Positions 21-63,014 of a DNA stretch of 64,000 bases are shown here, piece by piece. A model generated the notes under the pieces. The model had not been told where the DNA came from, searched no databases, and saw only the letters and a list, made by a program, of their open reading frames with translations. Each line of letters starts with the position of its first letter. Positions within the stretch are counted from its first letter, which is position 1. This DNA comes from Streptomyces sp. HSG2 (lineage in GTDB: Bacteria > Actinomycetota > Actinomycetes > Streptomycetales > Streptomycetaceae): assembly GCF_016598575.1 (NCBI RefSeq), contig NZ_CP066801.1, positions 4,816,501 through 4,880,500 on the forward strand. The letters are read 5' to 3'. Position numbers and translations under genes: made by a program.

Positions 21-1445
21 TCAGAGCCGCGCCGACCGCCCCGAGCCGTCCTGGGAACGGACCTCGACGACCGGCAGCAACCTGCGCAGGGCGGCGTTCT
101 CCGCCGGATCGAGCAGGGCGTGCTGGACACAGGCCGGGACGAGGGTGCCGTCCGAGGGATGGGCCATCGTGTAGTGACAGGCCGCCAGTCGCTCCTGGGC
201 CTCACGGATGTGGGGCGGCCTCGCCCGCTCCCCACGCCGGGTCGCCGCCCAGGCCTCGGCGACGACGTCCGCGTCCATGAACTGGTGCATCACGAAGGTC
301 ACCGGCCGGACGCGCATCCGGTGACGACACAACCGGCCGACGCCGACCCGGCGTACGGCGCGGACCAGCCACCCCAGCGCCGTCACGACCGTCGAGGGGT
401 GCCGGGCCACCACCCGCAGAATCCGGGCGACGAGCAGGGCCGGCGGCGTGCCGGTGAAGGTCGTCCGGCCGAAGTACCGGAAGAACGCGTCCCTGACGCC
501 CAGGTCGCGTGGGTCGTCGCCGTCGAGGACCGGGTACCACCGCCCGCCCACGAAGAAGCCGTAGGCCGTGCGGTTGCAGCGCACGTCCCCGTGCTCCAGT
601 ACCCGGTGGTCGAGACGCGCGCCGGCCCCGCGCTCGATCTCCGCCCACACCGCGTCCGGCGTGGCCTCGCGGAACCGCTGCCGCCACCGGCGTTCGTCGC
701 CGAGGAAGGCCGCGGGTTGGAAGGAGAACATCCGGTAGCCCATGGCGTGGCAGTCACGGATCACCCCGGCGATCTCGTCGAGGTTCCCGGGTGTCACGGT
801 CATGTTGTGGGCGAGGAAGAACCGCACGCCGTGCTCCTTCCGGAGCCGGTGGAACATGGCGGCGAATCTCTCGCGGTACGGGTTGAGGGAGCGCTCGTCC
901 GGGGGCCGTTCGATGCCGCGCCGACCGTACATGAACCTGTCGAAGTGGGCGGCGAAGGAAAGCCTCCGGAACCGGGGGACCCCGTCGTGGTCGAGGGCGA
1001 GGCGGGAGAGGTACTCGGCGTCGAAGTCACCGTGGGTGAAGCTCATCGGCTCCCGACCGTGGTCGCGCATGATCCGCAGGGCCGCCGCGTGGTCGTCCGG
1101 GGCGAGCAGGCTCACCTCCCCGCCGATGAGTTGGGCGTGCGCGCGAGGGCCCCGCGAGGCTCTCAGCACGCCCAGCTGGGCGGCCACCTGCTCTCGCGTG
1201 TGAGGGCCGTCGACGCGCACCCGGTTGGCGTCGCGCGAGTGGTAGCAGGGAGCGCACTTGAGGTCGCACTTGGGGAAGACGCCGTGGGTTCCCTCACAAC
1301 CGACCCCGTGACGCCCGAGGACCTGCCCGGGAGTCCTGGCCGTCTCGGGTAGCTCGGCCCACCGGCGCTCCATGGCCTCGGCGAACTCGACGTCGTACGG
1401 GCGGGTGGCTCGTTCCAGTGCGCGCAGGGCGCGGCCGATGCGCAT
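21..1445 (-). CDS. Radical SAM protein
   Basis: A 474-residue radical SAM enzyme of unknown substrate. The cluster motif is visible as C60-x3-C64-x2-C67, the arrangement that binds the [4Fe-4S] cluster which cleaves S-adenosylmethionine; another Cys lies at residue 50. Further on, segments such as AHAQLIGGEVSLL and RFFLAHNMTVTP fit strands of the TIM-barrel core. Reading could begin further upstream, but the chosen ATG has AGGAGG nine bases before it and the upstream 28 residues are Arg/Pro-rich and unlike a protein. It follows, in the same direction, a flavoprotein and a CDP-alcohol phosphatidyltransferase, with gaps of 163 and 245 bases, so co-expression is possible but tight coupling is not shown. 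The family assignment is firm; the reaction is not known to me. Confidence 0.85.
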   Translation of the reverse strand: MRIGRALRALERATRPYDVEFAEAMERRWAELPETARTPGQVLGRHGVGCEGTHGVFPKCDLKCAPCYHSRDANRVRVDGPHTREQVAAQLGVLRASRGPRAHAQLIGGEVSLLAPDDHAAALRIMRDHGREPMSFTHGDFDAEYLSRLALDHDGVPRFRRLSFAAHFDRFMYGRRGIERPPDERSLNPYRERFAAMFHRLRKEHGVRFFLAHNMTVTPGNLDEIAGVIRDCHAMGYRMFSFQPAAFLGDERRWRQRFREATPDAVWAEIERGAGARLDHRVLEHGDVRCNRTAYGFFVGGRWYPVLDGDDPRDLGVRDAFFRYFGRTTFTGTPPALLVARILRVVARHPSTVVTALGWLVRAVRRVGVGRLCRHRMRVRPVTFVMHQFMDADVVAEAWAATRRGERARPPHIREAQERLAACHYTMAHPSDGTLVPACVQHALLDPAENAALRRLLPVVEVRSQDGSGRSARL

Positions 1446-1608
1446 CGGGGCGTTCCTCCTCGGACGGAAGCGGATGGGACGGGCCCCGGACCCGGAGCGC
1501 CCGGCGAGGCGCACTCCCCCCGGGCCCACGACGCGGGGCGCGGGCGTCGTCGCGGACGCTCGCGGGGAAGGCGCCCCGAGCGACGCCGGATCCCGGGGAC
1601 CGGCCCCG

Positions 1609-3018
1609 TCACCGGAACACCCGTGCGCGCGCCCTCAACAGGGAGCCGACGAGCCCCCTGCCGCGATCCAGCCTGCGGTGCACGTCGGCGAGCGCGGCGT
1701 GCCAGGGACCGTCGGCGTAGGTGGGGTACGGGTGGGTGGTGCGTGCGTACTCCGAGGGGGTCCACCCCAGGCGCACCGCCGCGGCCAGGTGTCCGATGGT
1801 CTCGCCGGCCCTCGGCGCCACCACCGTCGCCCCGACGATCCGCCCGCGTGGCCCCAGCACCAGCGTGGTGAAGCCCTCGGTCCGGCCGTCGGCGACCGCG
1901 CGGTCGACCCGGTCGTTCGCCAGGGTGTGGACGCGCGTGGTGCCGCCGTACCGCTCCCGGGCGGCCGTCGTGGTCAGACCCACCCTCGCGATCTCGGGGT
2001 CGGTGTAGGTCACGTGGGGGACCGCGCGGTAGTCGATGGGCCGGCGCGCCCCGAGCAGCGCGTCGGCCGCGGCGGCGGCGCCCTGCGTACCACCCAGATG
2101 AGTGAACGCCGAGCGGCCGGTGACGTCTCCGGCGGCGTAGATCCGATGGTTGGTGGTGCGAAGTCTCCCGTCGGTCCGCACGGCGCCGCCGGCGGACCGT
2201 GCCACGCCCGCCGCCGACGTGCCCAGCCCCCGGGTGGCCGCGCGGCGACCCGTCACGGCCAGCAACGCGTCGTAGGGCAGAGGGCCGTCGGGTCCGAGGA
2301 CCGTGCCGGAGTCGACCCGTTCGGCGCGGTGGCCGGTGCGCACGGTGACCCCCTCGCCTTCGAGCCGGGCCCGCAGTACCCGGGAGGCCTCCGGTTCCTC
2401 ACCGGGGATCAGGCGTTCCTCGGCCTCCAGGATCGTGACCCGTGAGCCGAGGCGGGAGAACGCCTGCCCCAGCTCGCAGCCGACCGCGCCGCCCCCCATC
2501 ACCACCAACCGGTCCGGCAGTTCCGTCAGATCCCAGACGGTGTCGCTCGTCAGCGGCCGGGACTCGGCCAGACCCGGGACCGGCGCGAGGTCGGGGGAGG
2601 ACCCGGTGGCGATCACCGCGTACCGGAAGGAGACCTCCCGTCCGGCCACAGTCAGGGAACGTGGACCGGTGAAGGCGGCCGTGCCGTGCTCCACCTCGAC
2701 CCCGTGGGACGCGAGCGTCTCGGCGGAGTCGTGCGGCTCGATCGCCCGCACGGCCCGTGTGACCTCACGCATGACCGCCGTCAGGTCGGCGGCCCCGGCG
2801 ACGGGGGCGAACCCGTACACCTCGGCGCGCCGGGCCGCCCGGACCTCCGCGGCCACGCTCAACAGCGCCTTGCTGGGCACGCAGCCGGTCCACAGGCAGT
2901 CCCCACCGAGGCGGTCGCGTTCCACCAGAAGGGCGCGTGCGCCGAAGCGGCCCGCCGTGCGGGCGGCGGTCAGGCCGGCGCTTCCTCCGCCGACGACCAC
3001 CAGGTCGTACCCATTCAA
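1609..3018 (-). CDS. Pyridine nucleotide-disulfide oxidoreductase (mercuric reductase-like FAD enzyme)
   Basis: A 469-residue cytoplasmic class I flavoprotein disulfide reductase. The N-terminal FAD-binding motif GGGSAG is at residues 10-15, the redox Cys pair is C41-x4-C46 in GGDCLWTGCVPSK, a second dinucleotide fold starts at VVMGGGAVGCELG, and the GD box that contacts FAD reads YAAGDVTG. The C-terminus ends its dimer domain with HPYPT where lipoamide dehydrogenase has HxHPT, so the usual catalytic His is replaced by Tyr, as in mercuric-reductase-like relatives. The start is TTG, chosen because GGGAGG lies eight bases upstream and the protein then begins directly at the Rossmann strand; no in-frame ATG is near. 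Substrate unknown. It lies between the radical SAM gene and the phosphatidyltransferase gene on the same strand. Confidence 0.88.
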   Translation of the reverse strand: MNGYDLVVVGGGSAGLTAARTAGRFGARALLVERDRLGGDCLWTGCVPSKALLSVAAEVRAARRAEVYGFAPVAGAADLTAVMREVTRAVRAIEPHDSAETLASHGVEVEHGTAAFTGPRSLTVAGREVSFRYAVIATGSSPDLAPVPGLAESRPLTSDTVWDLTELPDRLVVMGGGAVGCELGQAFSRLGSRVTILEAEERLIPGEEPEASRVLRARLEGEGVTVRTGHRAERVDSGTVLGPDGPLPYDALLAVTGRRAATRGLGTSAAGVARSAGGAVRTDGRLRTTNHRIYAAGDVTGRSAFTHLGGTQGAAAAADALLGARRPIDYRAVPHVTYTDPEIARVGLTTTAARERYGGTTRVHTLANDRVDRAVADGRTEGFTTLVLGPRGRIVGATVVAPRAGETIGHLAAAVRLGWTPSEYARTTHPYPTYADGPWHAALADVHRRLDRGRGLVGSLLRARARVFR

Positions 3019-3263
3019 CGGGGTTGCCTCCCAGCTGTTGGTGGTCGCACGAGAACGGAACGGGGGACAGGGTGAACCCTCCCACGGGCCGACTCTCCTC
3101 GCCGTCCGCCCGTGATCCCGTGTCTGCCCGCGACCGGGTCGCGACCACCCGCGGCCACCGCTCCCTGACGACCCGCGTTCCCCCGACACAGGGGTGGATC
3201 CGCGCGGTGTCGTGACGTCGGGGTGGCCGAGCGCCTCACGGTCGTCGCCACCGTGTGGCCCGG

Positions 3264-3881
3264 TCAGCGCAGCCGCCGGTATCCGGTCGCGACGCGGTGG
3301 GCGGCGGTCACGCCCACCGCCCCGGCCCAGAACCAGGCGATGCCGTGCGCGTGAGCCGGGAACACGCACCAGAGCAGGTGCACGAGAACGGTCTCGGTGC
3401 CCTCGGCCAGGCCGCCCAGGAAGCTCAGCGAGCGCCCCCGGGACAGATCGTCGTCGGGCACGCGGCCGGTGCGTTCGGCGATCGAGGAGAAGGCGAGGAA
3501 GACGGTGCCGTTGACGTAGTAGGCGAGCAGGACGAGCAGGAACGGCAAGGCCGGACCGCCCACGCCGACGGCGACGCCCACGACGAAGGAGCCGTAGACC
3601 AGGAAGTCGGCGCTGATGTCGAGAAAGCCTCCCGCGCCGCTGTCTTCGGCCGTACCCCTGCGGCGCGCCAGCGGCCCGTCCAGGCCGTCGGCGAGTCGGG
3701 AGAGCACCCACAGCGCGGCGGCGGTCGCCCACCAACCCACCGCGGCGAGCCCGGCGGCGGCCACCCCGGTCAGCGCACCGACCACGGTCAGACCGGCGGG
3801 GGTGATCCCCGGGCGGTCCAGGATCGAGGCGGCGCGCGCCAACGGGCCGCTCAGCGCCTGTCTCACTCGCACGTCCAGCAT
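3264..3881 (-). CDS. CDP-alcohol phosphatidyltransferase family protein
   Basis: A 205-residue integral membrane enzyme of the family that transfers a phosphatidyl or similar group from a CDP-alcohol to a second alcohol. The family motif is readable as D68-G69-x2-A72-R73 followed by G84-x3-D88-x3-D92, the four-Asp metal site; the middle spacer is slightly longer than the consensus. About six hydrophobic helices are visible. The internal ATG giving MLDVRVRQ is preferred over one nine codons upstream because GGAGGG lies just before it. It is divergent from the YnjB-type lipoprotein gene. E. coli YnjF is a protein of the same family and similar length that sits beside ynjBCD, so the pairing with this importer looks conserved across phyla. 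Lipid product unknown. Confidence 0.85.
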   Translation of the reverse strand: MLDVRVRQALSGPLARAASILDRPGITPAGLTVVGALTGVAAAGLAAVGWWATAAALWVLSRLADGLDGPLARRRGTAEDSGAGGFLDISADFLVYGSFVVGVAVGVGGPALPFLLVLLAYYVNGTVFLAFSSIAERTGRVPDDDLSRGRSLSFLGGLAEGTETVLVHLLWCVFPAHAHGIAWFWAGAVGVTAAHRVATGYRRLR

Positions 3882-4033
3882 CGTTCGCTCCCTCCACCAC
3901 TCCGGCACCGTACCGGCGGGCGGGCGAGGAGGACCGTGTGCCCCACGTCGAACCCTCTTTCCCCGGAGGGATGTTCACGCGACCCGGTGGAGGGGAAGCG
4001 ACATCCGAGTAGCCGGCCGAAGGAGCGGGACGC

Positions 4034-5305
4034 ATGCGGACACGGACACGGACGCGGCACGGCGGGAGGCTCGCTCACCCCACCACCAGGTCCCTGGTCG
4101 CGGGCGTCGCGGCGGTCGTCCTGGCGACCGGAGCCTGCTCCGCCCCCGGCACCGCCTCGCCGCCGGAGAAGGACTGGGACCTGCTGCGCGAAGCGGCGAG
4201 AGGCCAGAGCGTCAACCTCTTCATGTACGGCGGCGACCGCGGTGCCAACGCCCACGTGGACGACGAGGTCGTCCCGGCCGCGAGGGCGTTGGGCATCACC
4301 GTCGAACGCGTCCCCGTGGCCGACACCCAGGACGCCGTGCAGAAGATCCTCGGCGACCAGCGGGCCGGCAAGGACAGCGGCGGGGCGGTGGACCTGGTCT
4401 GGGTGAACGGGGAGAACTTCCGCGCGGGCAAGGAGGCGGACGCGTGGCTGTGCGGCTACACCCCACTGATGCCGAACCGGAAGTACCTCGACCCCGACGA
4501 CCCGACGCTCGCCCGTGACTTCGGCATCGATATCGACGACTGCGAAACCCCCTGGAGCCGCGCCCGGTTCGCGTTCGTCCACGACTCGGCCAGGCTCCCC
4601 GAGCCTCCCCGCACCACCGCCGAGCTGCTGGAGTGGATCGAGACGAACCCGGGGCGCTTCACCTATCCCGCTCCGCCGGACTTCACCGGGTCGGCCTTCG
4701 TCCGGCACATGTTCCTGACCTCCCTCCCCGAGGGGACCCGCACTCCGCCCGCCTTCGGAGAGCAGGCCTACGAAGTGCTCACGCCGCCCTTGTGGCGGCG
4801 ACTGAACGCGCTCACCCCCTCGCTCTGGCGCGGGGGGACCACCTATCCCAGGGACCGGGCGGCACTCGACGAACTGTTCGCCGACGGTGAGGTCGACATG
4901 ACCATGACCTACAACCCGGCCGAGGTGCCGGCGCTCGTGGAACGGGGCGTGTTTCCCCCGGAAACCAGGGTCTTCGTGCCCGAGGAGGGATCTCTCGGCA
5001 ACACCAGCCACCTCGCCGTCCCCAAGAACGCCGCCCACCGCGAGGCGGCGCTGGTGCTGTCGGACCTGATGCTCTCGCCCGAACTCCAGTACGCGAAGGC
5101 GCGACCCGGAGGCTGGGGCGCGTACACGGTCCTGGACCGGGACCGGCTGCCCGAGCCCTGGAAGCGGAGGTTCGCCTCCCTGACCACCCCGGAGACCACC
5201 ATCCCGGCCGAGGACCTCTCCGTCGGCGCCCTCCCGGAGCCGGGCGGCGACTGGGTGACGCCCCTGGACAAGGGATGGAAACGAGAAGTCGCCGGCGCCT
5301 CGTGA
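4034..5305 (+). CDS. YnjB-like ABC transporter substrate-binding lipoprotein
   Basis: A 423-residue extracellular solute-binding protein. It starts with a basic N-region, a hydrophobic core and a lipobox-like ATGAC around residue 37, so it should be lipid-anchored outside the membrane. The stretch VDLVWVNGENFRAGKEADAW is characteristic of the YnjB family, distant relatives of iron, thiamine and polyamine binders. AAGGAG precedes the ATG by about ten bases. It is the first gene of an operon whose following genes overlap it and each other, giving two permeases and an ATPase. The transported compound is unknown for the E. coli homologue as far as I recall. Confidence 0.88.
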   Translation: MRTRTRTRHGGRLAHPTTRSLVAGVAAVVLATGACSAPGTASPPEKDWDLLREAARGQSVNLFMYGGDRGANAHVDDEVVPAARALGITVERVPVADTQDAVQKILGDQRAGKDSGGAVDLVWVNGENFRAGKEADAWLCGYTPLMPNRKYLDPDDPTLARDFGIDIDDCETPWSRARFAFVHDSARLPEPPRTTAELLEWIETNPGRFTYPAPPDFTGSAFVRHMFLTSLPEGTRTPPAFGEQAYEVLTPPLWRRLNALTPSLWRGGTTYPRDRAALDELFADGEVDMTMTYNPAEVPALVERGVFPPETRVFVPEEGSLGNTSHLAVPKNAAHREAALVLSDLMLSPELQYAKARPGGWGAYTVLDRDRLPEPWKRRFASLTTPETTIPAEDLSVGALPEPGGDWVTPLDKGWKREVAGAS

Positions 5306-6174
5306 AGCGCTTCGCCCCCTCTCCCGGCCGGCGGGGCCTGCTCCTGACCGCTCCGGCGCTCGCCGTCGTCGCCGCCGCCGTCGCCGCGCTGCTGTCGGCC
5401 GCGCGCGGCGGCCTCACCGACGACCTCGGGCACGGCTGGTCACTCTCCGCCTACACCGACCTACGACACCGTCCGGCGCTCCTCGAAGCCCTCCTCCTCA
5501 GCCTGCGGATCGCCACGCTGAGCACCCTGGCGTCGGCCGTGCTCGCCCTGGCCGCCGTGACCGCGGCGGGAGCCACACGCCGAGGGCGGGTCCTCCTGGA
5601 CATCACCGCCCGTGCCACGCTCGCCGTCCCGCACCTGCTCGCCGCCGCCGCGTTCGGGACACTGCTCGCCGGGTCGGGGCTCCTCTCCCGCCTCGCCCAC
5701 GCCACCGGCCTGAGCGACGGACCGGCGGACTTCCCCGCGTTCGTCGGTGCTCCCACGCCCACCGCCGTGCTCCTCGCCTACGCCTGGAAGGAGACCCCCT
5801 TCGTCGTCGTCATGCTCCTCGCGGCGTACACCCCGGCCGTGCGCGACCTGGAGGACGCGGCGCGAACCCTGGGCGCCGGGCGGTCGAGCCGGTTGCGTCA
5901 CGTCACCCTGCCGCTGCTCGCCCCGGCTCTCACCGAGGCGTGTCTGCTGGTCTTCGCCTTCACCTTCGCCGCCTACGAGGTACCGGCGCTGCTCGGGGCC
6001 ACCTCGCCCCGCGCTCTCCCGGTGGAAGCCGTGGACGCCTACCGGTCGATCGAAGCGGGCGACCGCCCGACCGCCCTCGCCCTGGCCACGGTGATCGGGC
6101 TGGTGGTCGCCCTGGCGGCGAGCGCCGCCGCGGTCGTCTCACGTCGGTTGCCGCGAGCCGGGGGGCCGCGTTGA
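5275..6174 (+). CDS. ABC transporter permease 1 (YnjC N-terminal half-like)
   Basis: A binding-protein-dependent transport permease of about 299 residues with six or so hydrophobic segments. The cytoplasmic EAA-type loop that docks to the ATPase is visible as DLEDAARTLGAGRSSRLRHV near residue 200. The start is uncertain: the ATG given overlaps the previous gene by 31 bases, while a GTG at 5302 would give the four-base GTGA overlap that is typical here and would remove nine residues. In E. coli YnjC both permease domains are one polypeptide; here they are two adjacent genes. Confidence 0.85.
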   Translation: METRSRRRLVKRFAPSPGRRGLLLTAPALAVVAAAVAALLSAARGGLTDDLGHGWSLSAYTDLRHRPALLEALLLSLRIATLSTLASAVLALAAVTAAGATRRGRVLLDITARATLAVPHLLAAAAFGTLLAGSGLLSRLAHATGLSDGPADFPAFVGAPTPTAVLLAYAWKETPFVVVMLLAAYTPAVRDLEDAARTLGAGRSSRLRHVTLPLLAPALTEACLLVFAFTFAAYEVPALLGATSPRALPVEAVDAYRSIEAGDRPTALALATVIGLVVALAASAAAVVSRRLPRAGGPR

Positions 6175-7010
6175 GCCGGCTCCTCGGCGCGGTGGGTTTC
6201 GCCGCCGCGGCCGTGTGGACCGCGGCGCCCCTCCTGCCCCTGCTGCTCTGGGCGTTCGCGGGTCGGTGGGTGTACCCGGCGCTCCTGCCCCAGGAGATCT
6301 CGGCGCGGGAGTGGAGCCGCGTCGCCGACCCCGAGGCACCGGTGATCACCGCGTTGGGCACATCCCTGGGCCTCGCGCTGACCACCGCCGCGGGCGCCAC
6401 CCTTCTGGGCGCCCTGGCCGCCCGGGGGCTCGTCCTGCACCGGCCACCCGCTTCGGACGCGATACGGCTCGCGCTGCTCGCCCCGGTCCTGGTGCCGCCG
6501 TTCGCCCTGGCGGTCGGCGTCCAGGAGGTGTTCGTCAGGGTCGGGCTCTCCGACCACCTCGCCGGGGTCGCGCTCGTCCACCTGGTGCCCGCCCTTCCCT
6601 ACGCGGTCCTCGTCCTGCTCGGCGCCCACGCCACCTACGACCCCCGAGAGGAGCAGGCGGTCAGGACGCTCGGCGCCTCGCGGGCGGCCGTCCTCCGCCA
6701 CGTCACCCTGCCCGCCCTCGCCCCGGCGCTGACGGCGGCGGCGACTCTGGCGTTCCTGGTCTCGTGGAGCGAGTACCTGATGACCGTGTTGGTCGGCGGG
6801 GGCGTCGTCACCACCCTGCCCCTCCTGCTCTTCTCCACCGCCGCCGGCAGCGGCAACCGGACCGCGACCGCCGTCCTCGGACTCCTCGTCGTCGTCCCGC
6901 CTGTCCTGCTCTTCACCGGGGCCTCGGCGCTGCTCCGCCGACACCGGACGCTCCGCGTCGCCTCCGGTCCCGGACCGACGCCGTCGCCGCCCGAAGGCAC
7001 CAGCGGATGA
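6171..7010 (+). CDS. ABC transporter permease 2 (YnjC C-terminal half-like)
   Basis: The second membrane subunit of the importer, 279 residues from a TTG that overlaps the stop of the preceding permease (TTGA). No better start exists near the first transmembrane helix. The EAA loop reads REEQAVRTLGASRAAVLRHV around residue 160, and the C-terminus is a Pro/Arg tail. With the neighbouring permease it should form the heterodimeric channel energised by the ATPase encoded next. Confidence 0.85.
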   Translation: MSRLLGAVGFAAAAVWTAAPLLPLLLWAFAGRWVYPALLPQEISAREWSRVADPEAPVITALGTSLGLALTTAAGATLLGALAARGLVLHRPPASDAIRLALLAPVLVPPFALAVGVQEVFVRVGLSDHLAGVALVHLVPALPYAVLVLLGAHATYDPREEQAVRTLGASRAAVLRHVTLPALAPALTAAATLAFLVSWSEYLMTVLVGGGVVTTLPLLLFSTAAGSGNRTATAVLGLLVVVPPVLLFTGASALLRRHRTLRVASGPGPTPSPPEGTSG

Positions 7011-8083
7011 CGCCCCCACCTCCGGACCGTCCCGCCGGCCTCCGCCTGGAGGGTGTGACGGCCGTCTACCGCGACCACCCGAATCCGGTGCTGGACGGTC
7101 TCGATCTCGCCGCCGACGACGGGCGACTGCTGGCGTTGCTGGGCCCCTCCGGATGCGGCAAGACGACCGTCGTCCGCGTCGCCTCCGGCCTCCTCGCACC
7201 CGCCCGCGGCACGGTCCGCCTCCGCGGCGCCGACGTGACCCGAATCCCACCGGAACGTCGTGGCGTCGCCGTGGTCTTCCAGCGACCGATGCTCCTTCCC
7301 CACCGCACGGCGCTCGACAACGTGGCGCTGCCTCTCCGGTTGCGCGGTCGGTCGCGTCGAGCGGCCCGCGCGGGTGCCCTGGTCCACCTGGATCGGGTCG
7401 GCCTGGCACCCCTCGCCGACCGACACCCCCGCCGGCTCTCCGGCGGGCAGGCCCAACGCGTGGCCCTCGCCCGCGCCCTGGCGGCCGAACCGGCCGTGCT
7501 GCTCCTGGACGAACCCTTCAGCGCACTCGACCGGGAGTTGCGACACGCCATGGGCGACCTGCTCGTCGCGGTCCAGCGCGAACTGGGGGTGACGACCCTT
7601 CTGGTCACCCACGATCAGACGGAGGCCGCCGCCGTCGCCGACGATGTCGCCCTGCTCGACGCCGGCGCGATCCTCCAACAGGCCCCGCCCACCGAACTGT
7701 ACGCCCACCCCGTCTCAGTGGCGGTGGCCCGGTTCCTGGGCTGTGCCACGGCGCTCCCCGGGCACGTCACATCCGGAGGGCGCTTCGCGTGCCCGCTGGG
7801 GGAACTCGCCCTGCCCGATTCCGTCACCCATCGTGGCCCCGGGCATCTCGTGATCCGGCCGGAGGTCGTCTCACTCGGCACCGGGCCGGAGACGGTGACC
7901 GGCGTGGTCCTGGGCCTCCGGCCGGAGGGCGCCTTCACCGCCCTCACGGCCGCCACGGCCGCCGGAACCGTCCACGCGCTGCTCCCACCGGGCGCGCGGC
8001 CCGCCCCGGGGGAGCGGGTCGGGCTCCACCTGCCGCTCGCGCGGCGCTGGGTGGTCCCTCGTGCCTCCGGCGAACCCGTCTGA
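7007..8083 (+). CDS. ABC transporter ATP-binding protein (YnjD-like)
   Basis: A 358-residue nucleotide-binding subunit. Walker A is GPSGCGKTT, the Q-loop is VVFQRPM, the signature is LSGGQAQR, Walker B is VLLLDEPF and the switch is VTHDQ, so all motifs needed for ATPase activity are present. The last hundred residues form a TOBE-like regulatory domain as in polyamine and sulfate importers. The ATG overlaps the stop of the preceding permease (ATGA), making translational coupling likely. It is the last gene of the four-gene operon beginning at 4034. Confidence 0.92.
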   Translation: MTPPPPDRPAGLRLEGVTAVYRDHPNPVLDGLDLAADDGRLLALLGPSGCGKTTVVRVASGLLAPARGTVRLRGADVTRIPPERRGVAVVFQRPMLLPHRTALDNVALPLRLRGRSRRAARAGALVHLDRVGLAPLADRHPRRLSGGQAQRVALARALAAEPAVLLLDEPFSALDRELRHAMGDLLVAVQRELGVTTLLVTHDQTEAAAVADDVALLDAGAILQQAPPTELYAHPVSVAVARFLGCATALPGHVTSGGRFACPLGELALPDSVTHRGPGHLVIRPEVVSLGTGPETVTGVVLGLRPEGAFTALTAATAAGTVHALLPPGARPAPGERVGLHLPLARRWVVPRASGEPV

Positions 8084-8219: not shown

Positions 8220-9649
8220 TCAGGCCTGGCAGGGCACCGTGGCGGGTCGGACCGCCAGGTGCCGCCGGAGGAATTCCAGTTGGTGCCCCAGCAGCCGGGC
8301 GAACGTGTCGTCGGTCGGTGCGGCATGGGCCATTCCGCTCAGCGGAAGTACCTCGTGGGGCTTCCCGGCTGCCAGCAGAGCGTCGGAGAGCCGGAGCGTA
8401 TTGGCCACGGAGACGTTGTCGTCCGCCATCCCGTGCGTCAGCAGCAGCGGACGGCCGAGTCTCGGAGCGTCGGCGAGCAGCGAGGACATCTCATAGTGCT
8501 CCGGGTATCGGGTCGGCGGGCCCAGAAAGCGCTCTTTCCAGCAGGCGTCGTAGAGCCGCTGATCGATGAGTGGTGCTCCGGCCACCGCTGCGTGGAAGGC
8601 GTCGTGACCGGCGTACCGCCGATGCTCAGGTGGCGGGTCTCGTCACGGTCGAGGTAGTCGACGAGCAGCCCGGTGGATGTCCGCGCGGGGACTCCGGGTA
8701 CCAGCAACTCCACCCAGCGCTCGTCGTGCCGCTCGGCCAGGAGGCTGGTCGTACCGTCCGTCGGGTCGACGGCAAGAACCTGGAGCGTGCGCTGGTCGCG
8801 GCTGAGGACGGCGGCGAACGGACCGTGCCTGTCCCAGCCGGCGGCGGGCAGGTACTCGAAGGCCGCCCGGTCCCAGCGGACCTCCGTGCGGTTGCCCACC
8901 AGATCGGCGATCCAGAGTGTGACCTCGGCGTTGGCGGTACCAACCCGCGGATAGCGCATGGTGCGCGGCGGCTTGGCGGGGTCCGCCGGATCGGCGAGGT
9001 ACCAGAGAGCGACCCCCCGGTTGTCGACCCTGGTGGTAAGCAGCCGCTCCCCGTCCGGTGCCCACCAGTACGCCCTGTGGCGGTCCATCGACTCGCTCGC
9101 CACATGCTCCGGAAGGCCGAAGAAGACATCCGGACCTTCCGCCGACTCAGGCGCGGCCACTGCTCGGTCGCCACCACCGTCGGCGCCGATCACCCGGAGC
9201 GCGCCACCGGATACGTAGGCGATGTACCGGCCGTCCGGCGACGGGCGCGGGTCCACTACCGGCCGGCGGGCGGGCAACTGCCGGACGGCGCCGGAGTCCG
9301 TATCCACCGTCCACAGCCGCCCGGCGAGGGCGAAGGCGGCCATCCGGGCGGCCGTGTCGGTGGCGTAGTCGGTGATCCCGGAGGCCTGCTGCCGGGCGCG
9401 CTCTCGCCGGATGCGCTCCTCTTCCGGCACTTCATCGGCCGTGTCACCGAGCAGCACGGTGGGGTCGGCCAGCAGGTGCTCCGAACCGGTCGCCAGGTCG
9501 AGCCTCCACAGGCAGCCGACCGGATCGTCCCCGGCCTTGCTGCGCAGGAACAGGACACCGGTGCCCTCCGGTGCCACGGAGAAGCGGGCGGGTGCGCCGA
9601 GGGTGAAGCCTCGGGTGCGGGCGAGCCGGCGCAGAAGTGGGGAAGTCAC
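8220..9649 (-). pseudogene. S9 (prolyl oligopeptidase/DPP IV) peptidase, internally deleted
   Basis: Remnant of a serine peptidase of the S9 family. Reading starts at a GTG with AGGAGG before it and gives a DPP IV-type beta-propeller (VTSPLLRRLARTRGFTLGAP onward, for example RPSPDGRYIAYVSGGALRV). At about 8600-8606 the propeller breaks off after the words LSIGGTPV, and in another frame the sequence resumes with DAFHAAVAGAPLIDQRLYD, which is the tail of the alpha/beta-hydrolase domain. The Asp (HGMADDN) and His (SGMAHAA) of the triad remain, but the GWSFGG-type nucleophile and roughly 250-280 residues around it are gone. The frame also changes at the seam. It cannot encode an active peptidase. 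Confidence 0.85.
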
Positions 9650-9667
9650 CTGATGCCTCCTGGGGTG

Positions 9668-9687
9668 CCCCGGCCTTCGGGCCGGGG
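9668..9687. terminator. GC hairpin with TTCG loop
   Basis: An eight-base perfect stem, CCCCGGCC and GGCCGGGG, closed by the very stable TTCG tetraloop. It lies between the ABC exporter fragment and the peptidase pseudogene, both read leftwards, so it could end transcripts from the former. There is no run of T, as is common in this GC range. Confidence 0.4.
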
Positions 9688-9760
9688 AGGAATCGGACCC
9701 CCGCGCTGCGGGGCGAGGAAAGAGCGATCGCGGTCGGGGCGATCGGTCGTCTGACGACGC

Positions 9761-10126
9761 GCCCTGGAAGCCGGCCCCCCTCAGGGTCCAGCCGAGTGCC
9801 TCGATGCGCGCGGCGCGCATGCGCTGCCGGAAGGACTCGTGCGCCGCGGTGAGAACACGGTCGCTCTCCCAGGTCTCGGAACGGCTCGCCTTCACGGTAC
9901 GGATCGCCCTCAGAGCACCCTCCAGAATGCCGCCCAGCCGGCCGATCGCCGCTTGAGCCTCCTGCTGGGCCGCCGTGAGCGGGCGCATGACCAAGCCGAT
10001 CACAGCCGCGATCGCGATGATCGCACCGGCCATGACGGCCGGCAACACCCAGTCGAGCGTCGCCATCAGGGCGAGCGAGCCGAGGATGGTGATCACCGCG
10101 CTGAAGAAGTCCATACGAACAGGCAC
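9761..10126 (-). pseudogene. ABC exporter transmembrane-domain fragment
   Basis: About 122 codons matching the middle of an ABC exporter membrane domain: two hydrophobic helices (SAVITILGSLALMATLDWVL and PAVMAGAIIAIAAVIGLVM) followed by the helical coupling segment IRTVKASRSETWESDR. The first part of the domain is missing upstream, where a stop precedes the frame, and the sequence loses similarity after LRGAGFQG, so the rest of the domain and the whole nucleotide-binding domain are absent. It continues without a stop into the peptidase pseudogene, which is a fusion by decay and not a real polyprotein. Confidence 0.65.
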
Positions 10127-61583: not shown

Positions 61584-63014
61584 ATGACCGAAACGGACCC
61601 CCGGGAGTACGACGTCGTCGTGGTCGGAGCGGGTCCGGTCGGCGAGAACGTCGCCGACCGGACCCGCGCGGCCGGCCTAGCCACCGCGATCGTGGAGAGC
61701 GAACTGGTCGGCGGAGAGTGCTCGTACTGGGCGTGCATGCCCAGCAAAGCACTGCTGAGGCCGGCCATCACGCGCGCGGACGCCCGCCGGACGCCCGGCG
61801 TGATGGGTGGGCTCTCCGACGCGCTCGACGTCCGCGCGGTCCTCGCGCATCGTGACGCCTACGCCTCGCACTGGGAGGACGACGGCCAGCGTCGGTGGGT
61901 CGAGGGTATCGGCGCCGACCTGTACCGCGGCCACGGTCGGCTCGCCGGTCCTCTGGTCGTGGAGGTCACCGGCGCCGACGACGAACGGCACACCCTCACC
62001 GCCCGGAACGCCGTGGCCGTCTGCACCGGCAGCCGGGCGCTCCTGCCCGACCTGCCGGGTCTCGCCGAGGCGCGACCCTGGACCAGCCGGGAGGCCACCA
62101 GCGCCACGTCGGCGCCCGAGCGGTTGATCGTGGTCGGAGGTGGCGTCGTCGCCGTCGAGATGGCCACCGCCTGGCAGGCCCTGGGCTCACGGGTCACCCT
62201 GTTGGTCAGGGGCGACGGCCTGCTGCGCCGTATGGAGCCGTTCGCCGGGGAACTCCTCGCCGAGTCCCTCGCCGAGGCCGGGGTCGACATCCGCACCGGC
62301 GCCGCCGTCGTCTCCGTCTCCCGCGCCCACGGGACGGTCGTCGCCGTCACCGACGCGGGGGACCGCTTCGAGGCGGACGAGATCCTGTTCGCCACCGGAC
62401 GCGCCCCCCGGACGGACGATCTCGGACTGGAGACGGTCGGGCTGGAACCGGGTTCCTGGCTGCGCGTCGACGACACCCTCCGGGTGCCCGACCGGGACTG
62501 GCTCTACGCGGTGGGCGACGTCAACCACCGGGCACTGCTCACTCACCAGGGGAAGTATCAGGCCCGGATCGCCGGCGACGCCATCGCGGCCCGGGCGGCC
62601 GGCCCGACGCCGGGAAGCGCCGTCGGTGAGGTGCCCACCGCGGTGGCGGACCGCGGGGCCGTGCCGCAGGTGATTTTCTCCGACCCGGAGGCGGCCTCGG
62701 TCGGTCTGTCGCTGGCCGAGGCGGAGAAGGCGGGCCACCGGGTCCGGGCCGTCGACGTCGACTTGTCCACGGTGGCGGGCGCGGGCCTGTTTCGCGAGGG
62801 CTACCGGGGGCAGGCTCGCATGGTCGTCGATCTGGACGACGAGACGCTGCGCGGCGTGACCTTCGTCGGTCCCGGTGTGGGAGAGCTGCTGCACTCGGCC
62901 ACCGTCGCGGTGGCGGGCCGGGTACCCATCGGCCGGCTGTGGCACGCGGTGCCGTCCTACCCGACGCTGAGCGAGGTCTGGCTGCGGCTTCTGGAGACCT
63001 ACCGGGACGACTGA
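61584..63014 (+). CDS. Pyridine nucleotide-disulfide oxidoreductase without the usual catalytic His
   Basis: A 476-residue class I flavoprotein. FAD site GAGPVG at 15-20, redox pair C46-x4-C51 in GGECSYWACMPSK, NAD(P) site VVGGGVVAVEMATAWQ and the GD box YAVGDVN are present. At the C-terminus it has AVPSYPT in place of HxHPT, so the base that activates the thiolate in lipoamide dehydrogenase is Ser here, although the preceding His is kept. Substrate unknown. Divergent from trxA, which may share regulation. Confidence 0.88.
   Translation: MTETDPREYDVVVVGAGPVGENVADRTRAAGLATAIVESELVGGECSYWACMPSKALLRPAITRADARRTPGVMGGLSDALDVRAVLAHRDAYASHWEDDGQRRWVEGIGADLYRGHGRLAGPLVVEVTGADDERHTLTARNAVAVCTGSRALLPDLPGLAEARPWTSREATSATSAPERLIVVGGGVVAVEMATAWQALGSRVTLLVRGDGLLRRMEPFAGELLAESLAEAGVDIRTGAAVVSVSRAHGTVVAVTDAGDRFEADEILFATGRAPRTDDLGLETVGLEPGSWLRVDDTLRVPDRDWLYAVGDVNHRALLTHQGKYQARIAGDAIAARAAGPTPGSAVGEVPTAVADRGAVPQVIFSDPEAASVGLSLAEAEKAGHRVRAVDVDLSTVAGAGLFREGYRGQARMVVDLDDETLRGVTFVGPGVGELLHSATVAVAGRVPIGRLWHAVPSYPTLSEVWLRLLETYRDD

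Follow-up and report, generated by a model that had tools for sequence, protein, structure and literature searches.

In Escherichia coli K-12, the genes ynjB, ynjC, ynjD, ynjE and ynjF follow one another in this order, and the larger cluster ydjXYZ-ynjABCD-ynjE-ynjF brings together a YnjB-type binding protein, a permease and an ATPase with the CDP-alcohol phosphatidyltransferase (CDP-PT) YnjF. The function of ynjABCD and ynjF is unsettled. Here, we describe a related cluster of seven genes at positions 21 to 8083 of a 64,000-nucleotide stretch of the Streptomyces sp. HSG2 genome (contig NZ_CP066801.1, positions 4,816,501 to 4,880,500; hereafter the window), in which the importer and the CDP-PT are accompanied by a MerA-like flavoprotein and a radical S-adenosylmethionine (SAM) protein. 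What is new here is that the radical SAM protein of such a ynj-type cluster looks like a shortened relative of the archaeal tetraether lipid synthase (Tes), as judged from a family profile, a structural model and conserved residues. A first-pass annotation had described three minus-strand genes divergent from a four-gene ATP-binding cassette (ABC) importer, and this was confirmed by the open frames and by family tests. It had also placed ynjB, ynjC, ynjD and ynjF of E. coli side by side: the genes do belong to one cluster, but ynjE stands between them and ynjF is located on the opposite strand.

HSG2 YnjB scores 451.6 bits against the YnjB family model NF008633 (cut-off 203) and is 35% identical to E. 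coli YnjB over 369 residues, and the CDP-PT shares 41% identity with YnjF over 206 residues. In E. coli the permease YnjC is one fused protein whereas HSG2 has two permeases, and neither a MerA-like flavoprotein nor a radical SAM protein is annotated in the E. coli cluster. In turn, E. coli has the DedA/VTT proteins YdjX and YdjZ, the AhpD-like YnjA and the sulfurtransferase YnjE, whereas tblastn found no VTT gene in the HSG2 window.

For the E. coli genes, one report describes the operon ydjXYZ-ynjABCD as activated by FNR (PMC3688515), a study of genetic interactions groups ynjABCDEFI with the Suf iron-sulphur genes (PMC3930520), and a third reports that overexpression of BaeR raises ynjA 1.6-fold and ynjB 1.4-fold, perhaps indirectly according to its authors (PMC2731931). 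The FNR activation and the Suf grouping fit a common pathway without naming it. In the open-access literature, we found no paper naming both ynjB and ynjF, none combining TVP38, CDP-alcohol phosphatidyltransferase and radical SAM, and none with three of the terms TVP38, CDP-alcohol phosphatidyltransferase, mercuric reductase and ABC transporter substrate-binding. Tes is described as having, next to a hydrophobic lipid tunnel, a C-terminal 4Fe-4S cluster whose Met439 is labile, in addition to N-terminal rubredoxin and N-cluster motifs (PMC9433317). Homologues are reported from many bacterial metagenome-assembled genomes, their function being unproven (PMC11868695).

The radical SAM protein and tetraether lipid synthase

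The CX3CX2C motif of the HSG2 protein (C60, C64, C67) is invariant in all 21 family members, and the top fold matches are radical SAM enzymes; the protein is thus a member of this superfamily, with a Pfam Radical_SAM score of 22.5 bits, below the gathering threshold of 29.5. A profile of nine family members matched two PDB sequences at E 0.01, the best being the archaeal GDGT-MAS/Tes 7tol (E 3e-6; the profile takes in a distant Burkholderia relative, which may drive this match), and a second, sub-threshold piece of the match pairs the C-terminal C...PxC stretch. In NCBIfam, TrsS was matched by seven of the nine members and Tes by five, under the cut-off wherever scores were shown; the best TrsS score (NF045646; 106 bits, cut-off 490) belongs to the Burkholderia relative, whereas the HSG2 protein itself has no TrsS match. 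We know of no function of TrsS. When candidates from Foldseek were compared by VIA-align with an AlphaFold2 model built from ten sequences (predicted template modelling score 0.82, mean predicted local distance difference test (pLDDT) 76.8), 7tol came first (Z 17.0, 315 residues, root-mean-square deviation 4.9) and 7tom reached 16.5; viperin was the next family with Z 11.9 over 205 residues. GDGT-MAS/Tes (PDB 7TOL, 7TOM) is the top match of both the family profile and the structural model.

The conserved residues point in the same direction. In a joint alignment, C50, C60, C64, C67, C290, D391, C423, P437 and C439 are identical in all ten family rows and in all nine rows of bacterial Tes/TrsS-type proteins, and both groups have the same order of CX3CX2C, a mid-protein cysteine, F-M/Q-D and C...PxC. 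M390 aligns with a methionine in five of these nine rows, the position being M or Q there. None of these seven cysteines varies among the 21 family members, 18 of which retain M390. We infer that C290, M390, C423 and C439 may be counterparts of the ligands of the C-terminal cluster of Tes. Yet the HSG2 protein is not a Tes, since it gave no match to the Tes model NF045702 (cut-off 450 bits) at E <= 0.01 and lacks the rubredoxin motif and the N-cluster cysteines of Tes, its first cysteine being C50. It rather looks like a shortened, Tes-like relative. Bacterial Tes/TrsS-type proteins were found at E 1e-25 in 22 of 386 genomes, HSG2 not being among them; none exceeded the Tes cut-off, and the one that was tested (L207; L and G numbers are our handles for loci and genomes) scored higher for TrsS than for Tes.

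Besides the Burkholderia relative in the profile, several observations weigh against the likeness. Searched alone, the HSG2 protein had no NCBIfam match at E <= 0.01 and no radical SAM match in PDB at E <= 1, the only hit being a glucanase at E 0.97. Viperin, like Tes, was matched by five of the nine members. The confidence of the model is low at residues 52-66, the loop of the SAM cluster, and Foldseek with this model returned nothing at E <= 0.001, Tes being absent from the top 50. The hhalign probability of the family with nine Tes/TrsS-type proteins is a modest 57.6% (E 1e-4, core residues only), as compared to 2.6% and 1.3% for two other radical SAM groups, the latter represented by a single ArsS sequence. 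The protein is also rare, a point that weighs against the lipid module proposed below: none of 36 other genomes of the genus has it.

No relative was found on viral contigs. Plasmids yielded 47 records, each below 60% identity and 45 of them from Burkholderia. A possible selenocysteine, raised by a TGA reported in the radical SAM gene of G346, was dropped: the extracted frame is open across 460 residues.

Recurrence of the gene set

We searched 396 Actinomycetota genomes, sampled evenly, for YnjB, the CDP-PT and the radical SAM protein. YnjB was found above the cut-off in 36 genomes (58 were matched, of which 22 stayed below it, including G257, where a CDP-PT is encoded 3 kb away from a YnjB fragment), a YnjF-type CDP-PT (E <= 1e-15) in 28, and a strong radical SAM match in ten (15 genomes were matched, of which the five weaker ones, with E values from 4.5e-15 to 5.4e-4, are not counted, among them G240 with what is probably a real fragment). 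Joint occurrence was seen in 21 genomes for YnjB and CDP-PT (p 1e-19 by Fisher's test), in six for YnjB and the radical SAM protein (p 6e-5), and also in six for CDP-PT and the radical SAM protein (p 1e-5); these values ignore kinship, and 23 of the 36 YnjB genomes belong to one family. In 15 of the 21 genomes, which represent six families, YnjB and CDP-PT are at most 10 kb apart, as compared to an expectation of about 0.7% per genome (20 kb in 3 Mb). Around 33 fetched YnjB loci, a set without G241, G428 and the HSG2 window and with eight loci shorter than 12 kb, we found a nearby CDP-PT at 13, a flavoprotein at 15, a VTT protein at 15 and the radical SAM protein at two.

The grouping extends to a wider set, the best 80 YnjB loci of at least 594 relatives, which is biased to close kin and shares five contigs with the set of 33 (L032/L154, L038/L139, L044/L133, L045/L134, L065/L159). 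Here, a CDP-PT is nearby at 20 loci, a flavoprotein at 17, a VTT protein at 15 and the radical SAM protein at ten; nine of these ten also have the CDP-PT and nine the flavoprotein. Loci with the radical SAM gene are found in differing gene orders in Blastococcus, Promicromonospora, Modestobacter, Kineosporia, Paraconexibacter and Thermoleophilaceae. CDP-PT and flavoprotein occur without it in Salinispora, in two Bacillota (L071, L076), in the Chloroflexota locus L037 and, within the fetched stretch, in the Streptomyces loci L018 and L050. The pairing of YnjB with CDP-PT is repeated in some Pseudomonadota, Bacillota and Chloroflexota. In G341, a genome without a YnjB match, the radical SAM gene adjoins a weaker CDP-PT (67 bits). 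Plasmids hold 205 records of YnjB relatives, 74 of them at 80% cover; of seven that were examined, four carry a CDP-PT (Roseivivax, Klebsiella, Catenovulum, Falsirhodobacter) and four a MerA-like flavoprotein. Single loci have lipid-type neighbours: a lysophospholipid acyltransferase, paraquat-inducible/MlaD lipid-transport-type genes, FA_hydroxylase and also VTT domains.

The HSG2 flavoprotein scores 199.9 bits against Pyr_redox_2. It shares the Pyr_redox fold and the CX4C motif with MerA and with flavin-dependent oxidoreductases fused to VTT domains, but differs from MerA in its score of 346 bits, below the TIGR02053 cut-off of 454.45, and in having cysteines only at positions 41, 46 and 181. 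With the curated cut-off missed, the label of a mercuric reductase was rejected. In three plasmid YnjB clusters (L011, L013, L014), the counterpart of 37-40% identity is fused to a TVP38/VTT domain, by annotation or by test. In the HSG2 genome, the best VTT match (35% identity) precedes the window by about 48 kb. The Streptomyces relative L019 has a VTT-like gene (7223-7960, plus strand) between flavoprotein and CDP-PT, which the HSG2 window lacks.

A tree of 119 YnjB proteins (long branches: L016, L013) was labelled according to the neighbours, with 44 rows as "module", 59 as "alone" and 16 as short; the thresholds for the markers were chosen for this analysis, and contig ends leave some "alone" labels unsure (L133). 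The labels change 16 times without the short rows and 18 times with all rows, as compared to about 36 for shuffled labels, and 13 of the changes are forced by well-supported branches. With so many changes, the set must have been gained or lost many times.

The same surveys set limits, and these weigh against a module with fixed partners. YnjB and CDP-PT are apart in the remaining six of the 21 genomes, in five of them on separate contigs. The radical SAM gene stands in a stretch without CDP-PT and YnjB in six of the ten strong genomes; overall, the genomes in which the retrieved stretch has it with neither of the two are G157, G438, G200, G346, G427 and G197, together with G040, G050 and G051. 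Among 25 genomes picked by locus from the best 80, a search at E 1e-8 found a YnjF-like CDP-PT in 19, near YnjB in eight and apart from it in 11, i. e. in ten alphaproteobacteria and one Bacillota. We retrieved eight of these separate CDP-PT loci, seven from alphaproteobacteria and the one from Bacillota, and none contained YnjB. Many YnjB loci without the module carry nucleoside hydrolase and dihydroxyacetone-kinase-type genes. Since the CDP-PT can lie apart and such stand-alone loci exist, YnjB is not a dedicated partner everywhere. Within these limits, the association of YnjB, CDP-PT and flavoprotein is general. The neighbourhood analysis that the first-pass annotation had proposed thus found association well beyond the genus: the three genes, and in Actinomycetota also the radical SAM gene, recur across families and phyla.

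Two observations concern CDP-PT genes apart from YnjB: in Devosia (L197), a VTT-type flavoprotein is encoded near the distant CDP-PT, and L189, L190, L191 and L192 have a second flavin-dependent oxidoreductase, of a 360-residue type, within about 4 kb.

A possible lipid pathway and its alternatives

How could these proteins work together? We suggest, as our preferred but tentative reading, which falls somewhat short of being probable, that the seven genes form a module for the assembly and modification of a membrane lipid: (i) The CDP-PT, judging from its family and intact motif, would transfer the phosphatidyl group from CDP-diacylglycerol onto a polar alcohol. (ii) The YnjB-type importer may supply the polar precursor or a salvaged head-group compound. 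(iii) In this lipid or a related one, a hydrophobic chain would be the target of the 5'-deoxyadenosyl radical formed by the radical SAM protein; by comparison with Tes, the predicted fold and the residues suggest that a putative C-terminal iron-sulphur cluster (C290, C423, C439 and, in most family members, M390) would sit close to this chain. (iv) The flavoprotein, by family and CX4C motif, would act as a dithiol reductase with NAD(P)H as its reductant and provide electrons at the thiol level, keeping thiols or a peroxidase-like partner reduced. (v) Many relatives have a VTT-domain protein, either on its own or as part of a fusion with the flavoprotein, and this protein would move the lipid across the membrane, as its family suggests. 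The likeness of the radical SAM protein to Tes strengthens the idea of a lipid. If the protein indeed acts on lipid chains, Tes-type chemistry, which has been demonstrated for archaea and suggested for homologues from bacteria, would reach soil actinomycetes. Moreover, the recurring link to the CDP-PT and, among actinomycetes, to a radical SAM protein with a Tes fold offers a testable pathway for the unsettled ynj genes. It is tempting to go further, to a so far undescribed lipid in the membranes of some actinomycetes, on which a minimal Tes-type enzyme would functionalise or cross-couple the acyl chain in concert with a YnjF-type CDP-PT and a dedicated head-group importer, the ynj genes of E. 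coli being a reduced form without the radical SAM protein; this specific version we consider rather unlikely.

The first-pass annotation had already proposed that the importer brings in an alcohol or head-group precursor for the CDP-PT and that the flavoprotein and radical SAM protein modify substrate or product. The lipid part of this idea gained from the Tes-like protein and the recurrence of the genes, but the import of a head group is called into question by the YnjB model, by the nucleoside hydrolases and by the separate CDP-PT genes of alphaproteobacteria. The model (AlphaFold2, 40 sequences) is confident, with a pLDDT of 90.6; in fold searches, it is tied (Z 26.5-27.6) among binders of maltose, glycerophosphodiesters (UgpB), sulfoquinovosyl-glycerol and dinucleotides, and assignment of the ligand from the structure was dropped for this reason. 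When the genes of 125 stretches were clustered, 19 loci had members of one nucleoside hydrolase family and five had members of another, with DhaK and DhaL families in eight and nine; one representative of each was checked in Pfam, the second hydrolase being identified by annotation. These results, which count against a head-group importer, suit a competing explanation that we regard as unlikely but worth serious attention: the CDP-PT makes a lipid, and YnjB takes up a nutrient or salvage product that resembles a sugar, a nucleoside or a glycerophosphodiester, the two being linked by regulation or by membrane stress. This would agree with the absence of the hydrolase, DhaK and DhaL families from the module loci as listed, and with the 59 of 119 YnjB rows that have no CDP-PT, flavoprotein or radical SAM protein above threshold in a stretch of at least 12 kb. 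It does not explain why CDP-PT and YnjB are adjacent far above chance, and in varied order, in Actinomycetota.

In L016, L049, L052, L059, L061, L063 and L077, the YnjB importer, nucleoside hydrolase, DhaK, DhaL and an unknown family of 483 residues are encoded in one stretch, apparently a catabolic cluster for some glycoside or nucleoside.

The CDP-PT does not settle the head group either. The protein belongs to PF01066 (CDP-OH_P_transf; 34.0 bits, gathering threshold 22; motif at residue 74). Its best NCBIfam likeness is archaetidylinositol-phosphate synthase, far under the cut-off, and its only PDB match at E 0.01 is the inositol-phosphate transferase 4mnd (E 0.0027). Since it misses the cut-offs of both the archaetidylinositol-phosphate and the phosphatidylinositol-phosphate synthase models (NF040950 and NF045883; 46.6 and 31.8 bits versus 180 and 170), the head group cannot be assigned from these models.

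According to another explanation, the radical SAM protein is a guest of the ynj cluster that works in an organoarsenic pathway or in the modification of sugars, and both the MerA-like flavoprotein and the AhpD-like proteins serve in detoxification. Some relatives have a suggestive context: in L160 (4695-12005), the radical SAM gene adjoins TIGR04282, TIGR04283, a major facilitator superfamily protein and a metallophosphoesterase-radical SAM fusion, and similar TIGR04282-/TIGR04283-type and fusion genes lie beside it in L162 (3109-10936) and L017 (0.2-5.9 kb), whereas L182 and L184 have only TIGR04283-like and fusion genes. In NCBIfam, TIGR04282 and TIGR04283 are named as arsenosugar biosynthesis glycosyltransferases; these names rest on genomic context. 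In Burkholderia glumae, a distant relative is encoded three genes from arsS. On the other hand, the HSG2 protein has no match to ArsS (TIGR04167, cut-off 300 bits; no NCBIfam match at E <= 0.01), no TIGR04283 match above the cut-off exists in the HSG2 genome, and both the fold and the conserved residues favour Tes over ArsS, for which hhalign gave the 1.3%. We consider this origin improbable, and the label of an arsenosugar enzyme was rejected as the curated cut-offs failed.

About equally improbable, in our view, is a cassette for envelope stress or redox control whose genes lie together by co-regulation, without a common pathway. Genes for extracytoplasmic function (ECF) sigma factors are found near eight of the best 80 and two of the 33 YnjB loci, with zf-HC2 genes in several, and the reported effects of FNR and BaeR on the E. 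coli genes (PMC3688515, PMC2731931) would also agree with it. Genes of these two kinds occur repeatedly near the radical SAM gene, in the ynj-type as well as in the TIGR04283-type context, the sigma factor being close by in L160 and L162 and farther away in L017. A mere cassette is less easily reconciled with the repeated meeting of the same enzyme classes in differing order. Finally, a chance neighbourhood found no supporting point and is practically ruled out by the joint occurrence in the sampled genomes and by the 15 of 21 adjacent pairs against the 0.7% expected per genome, unless kinship accounts for everything.

Layout and neighbourhood of the HSG2 locus

The HSG2 genome is a single contig of 5.28 Mb, and the closest named relatives of its YnjB, among the best 80 of the at least 594, are from Streptomyces (72-74% identity). 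Transcription of the minus-strand genes would proceed from the CDP-PT through the flavoprotein to the radical SAM gene, with gaps of 245 and 163 bases, and 125 bases separate the CDP-PT gene from the divergent ynjB. On the plus strand, successive genes share 31, 28 and 4 bases. In Pfam, the permeases score 43.7 and 45.3 bits (BPD_transp_1) and the ATPase 111 bits (ABC_tran).

Genes of the ynj-type cluster of Streptomyces sp. HSG2 (positions in the window)
Product	Position	Strand	Features
Radical SAM protein	21-1445	-	474 aa; Tes/TrsS-like core and C-terminal cysteine region; without rubredoxin or N-cluster motif; longest frame from 1529
Flavoprotein, pyridine nucleotide-disulphide oxidoreductase, MerA-like	1609-3018	-	469 aa; CLWTGC redox disulphide; TTG start behind GGGAGG
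YnjF-type CDP-alcohol phosphatidyltransferase	3264-3908	-	214 aa; intact DxxDGxxAR...GxxxDxxxD motif
YnjB-family solute-binding protein (NF008633)	4034-5305	+	423 aa; TGAC lipobox-like site close to N terminus
ABC permease 1	5275-6174	+	BPD_transp_1
ABC permease 2	6147-7010	+	BPD_transp_1
ABC ATPase	7007-8083	+	ABC_tran; Walker A GPSGCGKT and LSGGQ present

Scans of the window with Rfam and for tRNAs gave no match, and no module marker was found in the 16 kb preceding the window. About 180 bases past the radical SAM gene, outside the window, a frame on the same strand resembles a cold-shock protein by eye. On the other side, after the importer, a region at 8220-10126 (minus strand) is apparently decayed: a membrane segment of an ABC exporter is continuous, in one frame, with a DPPIV_N segment, and part of a Peptidase_S9 domain is encoded in a different frame. 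It is followed by an AbiEii-type nucleotidyltransferase domain (PF08843; 10733-11755, plus strand), possibly the toxin component of a type IV toxin-antitoxin system, and by a DDE transposase domain (PF01609; 12699-14453, minus strand). Near the far end of the window, at 61689-62975 on the plus strand, there is a second disulphide oxidoreductase-like stretch with 33% identity to the flavoprotein of the cluster.

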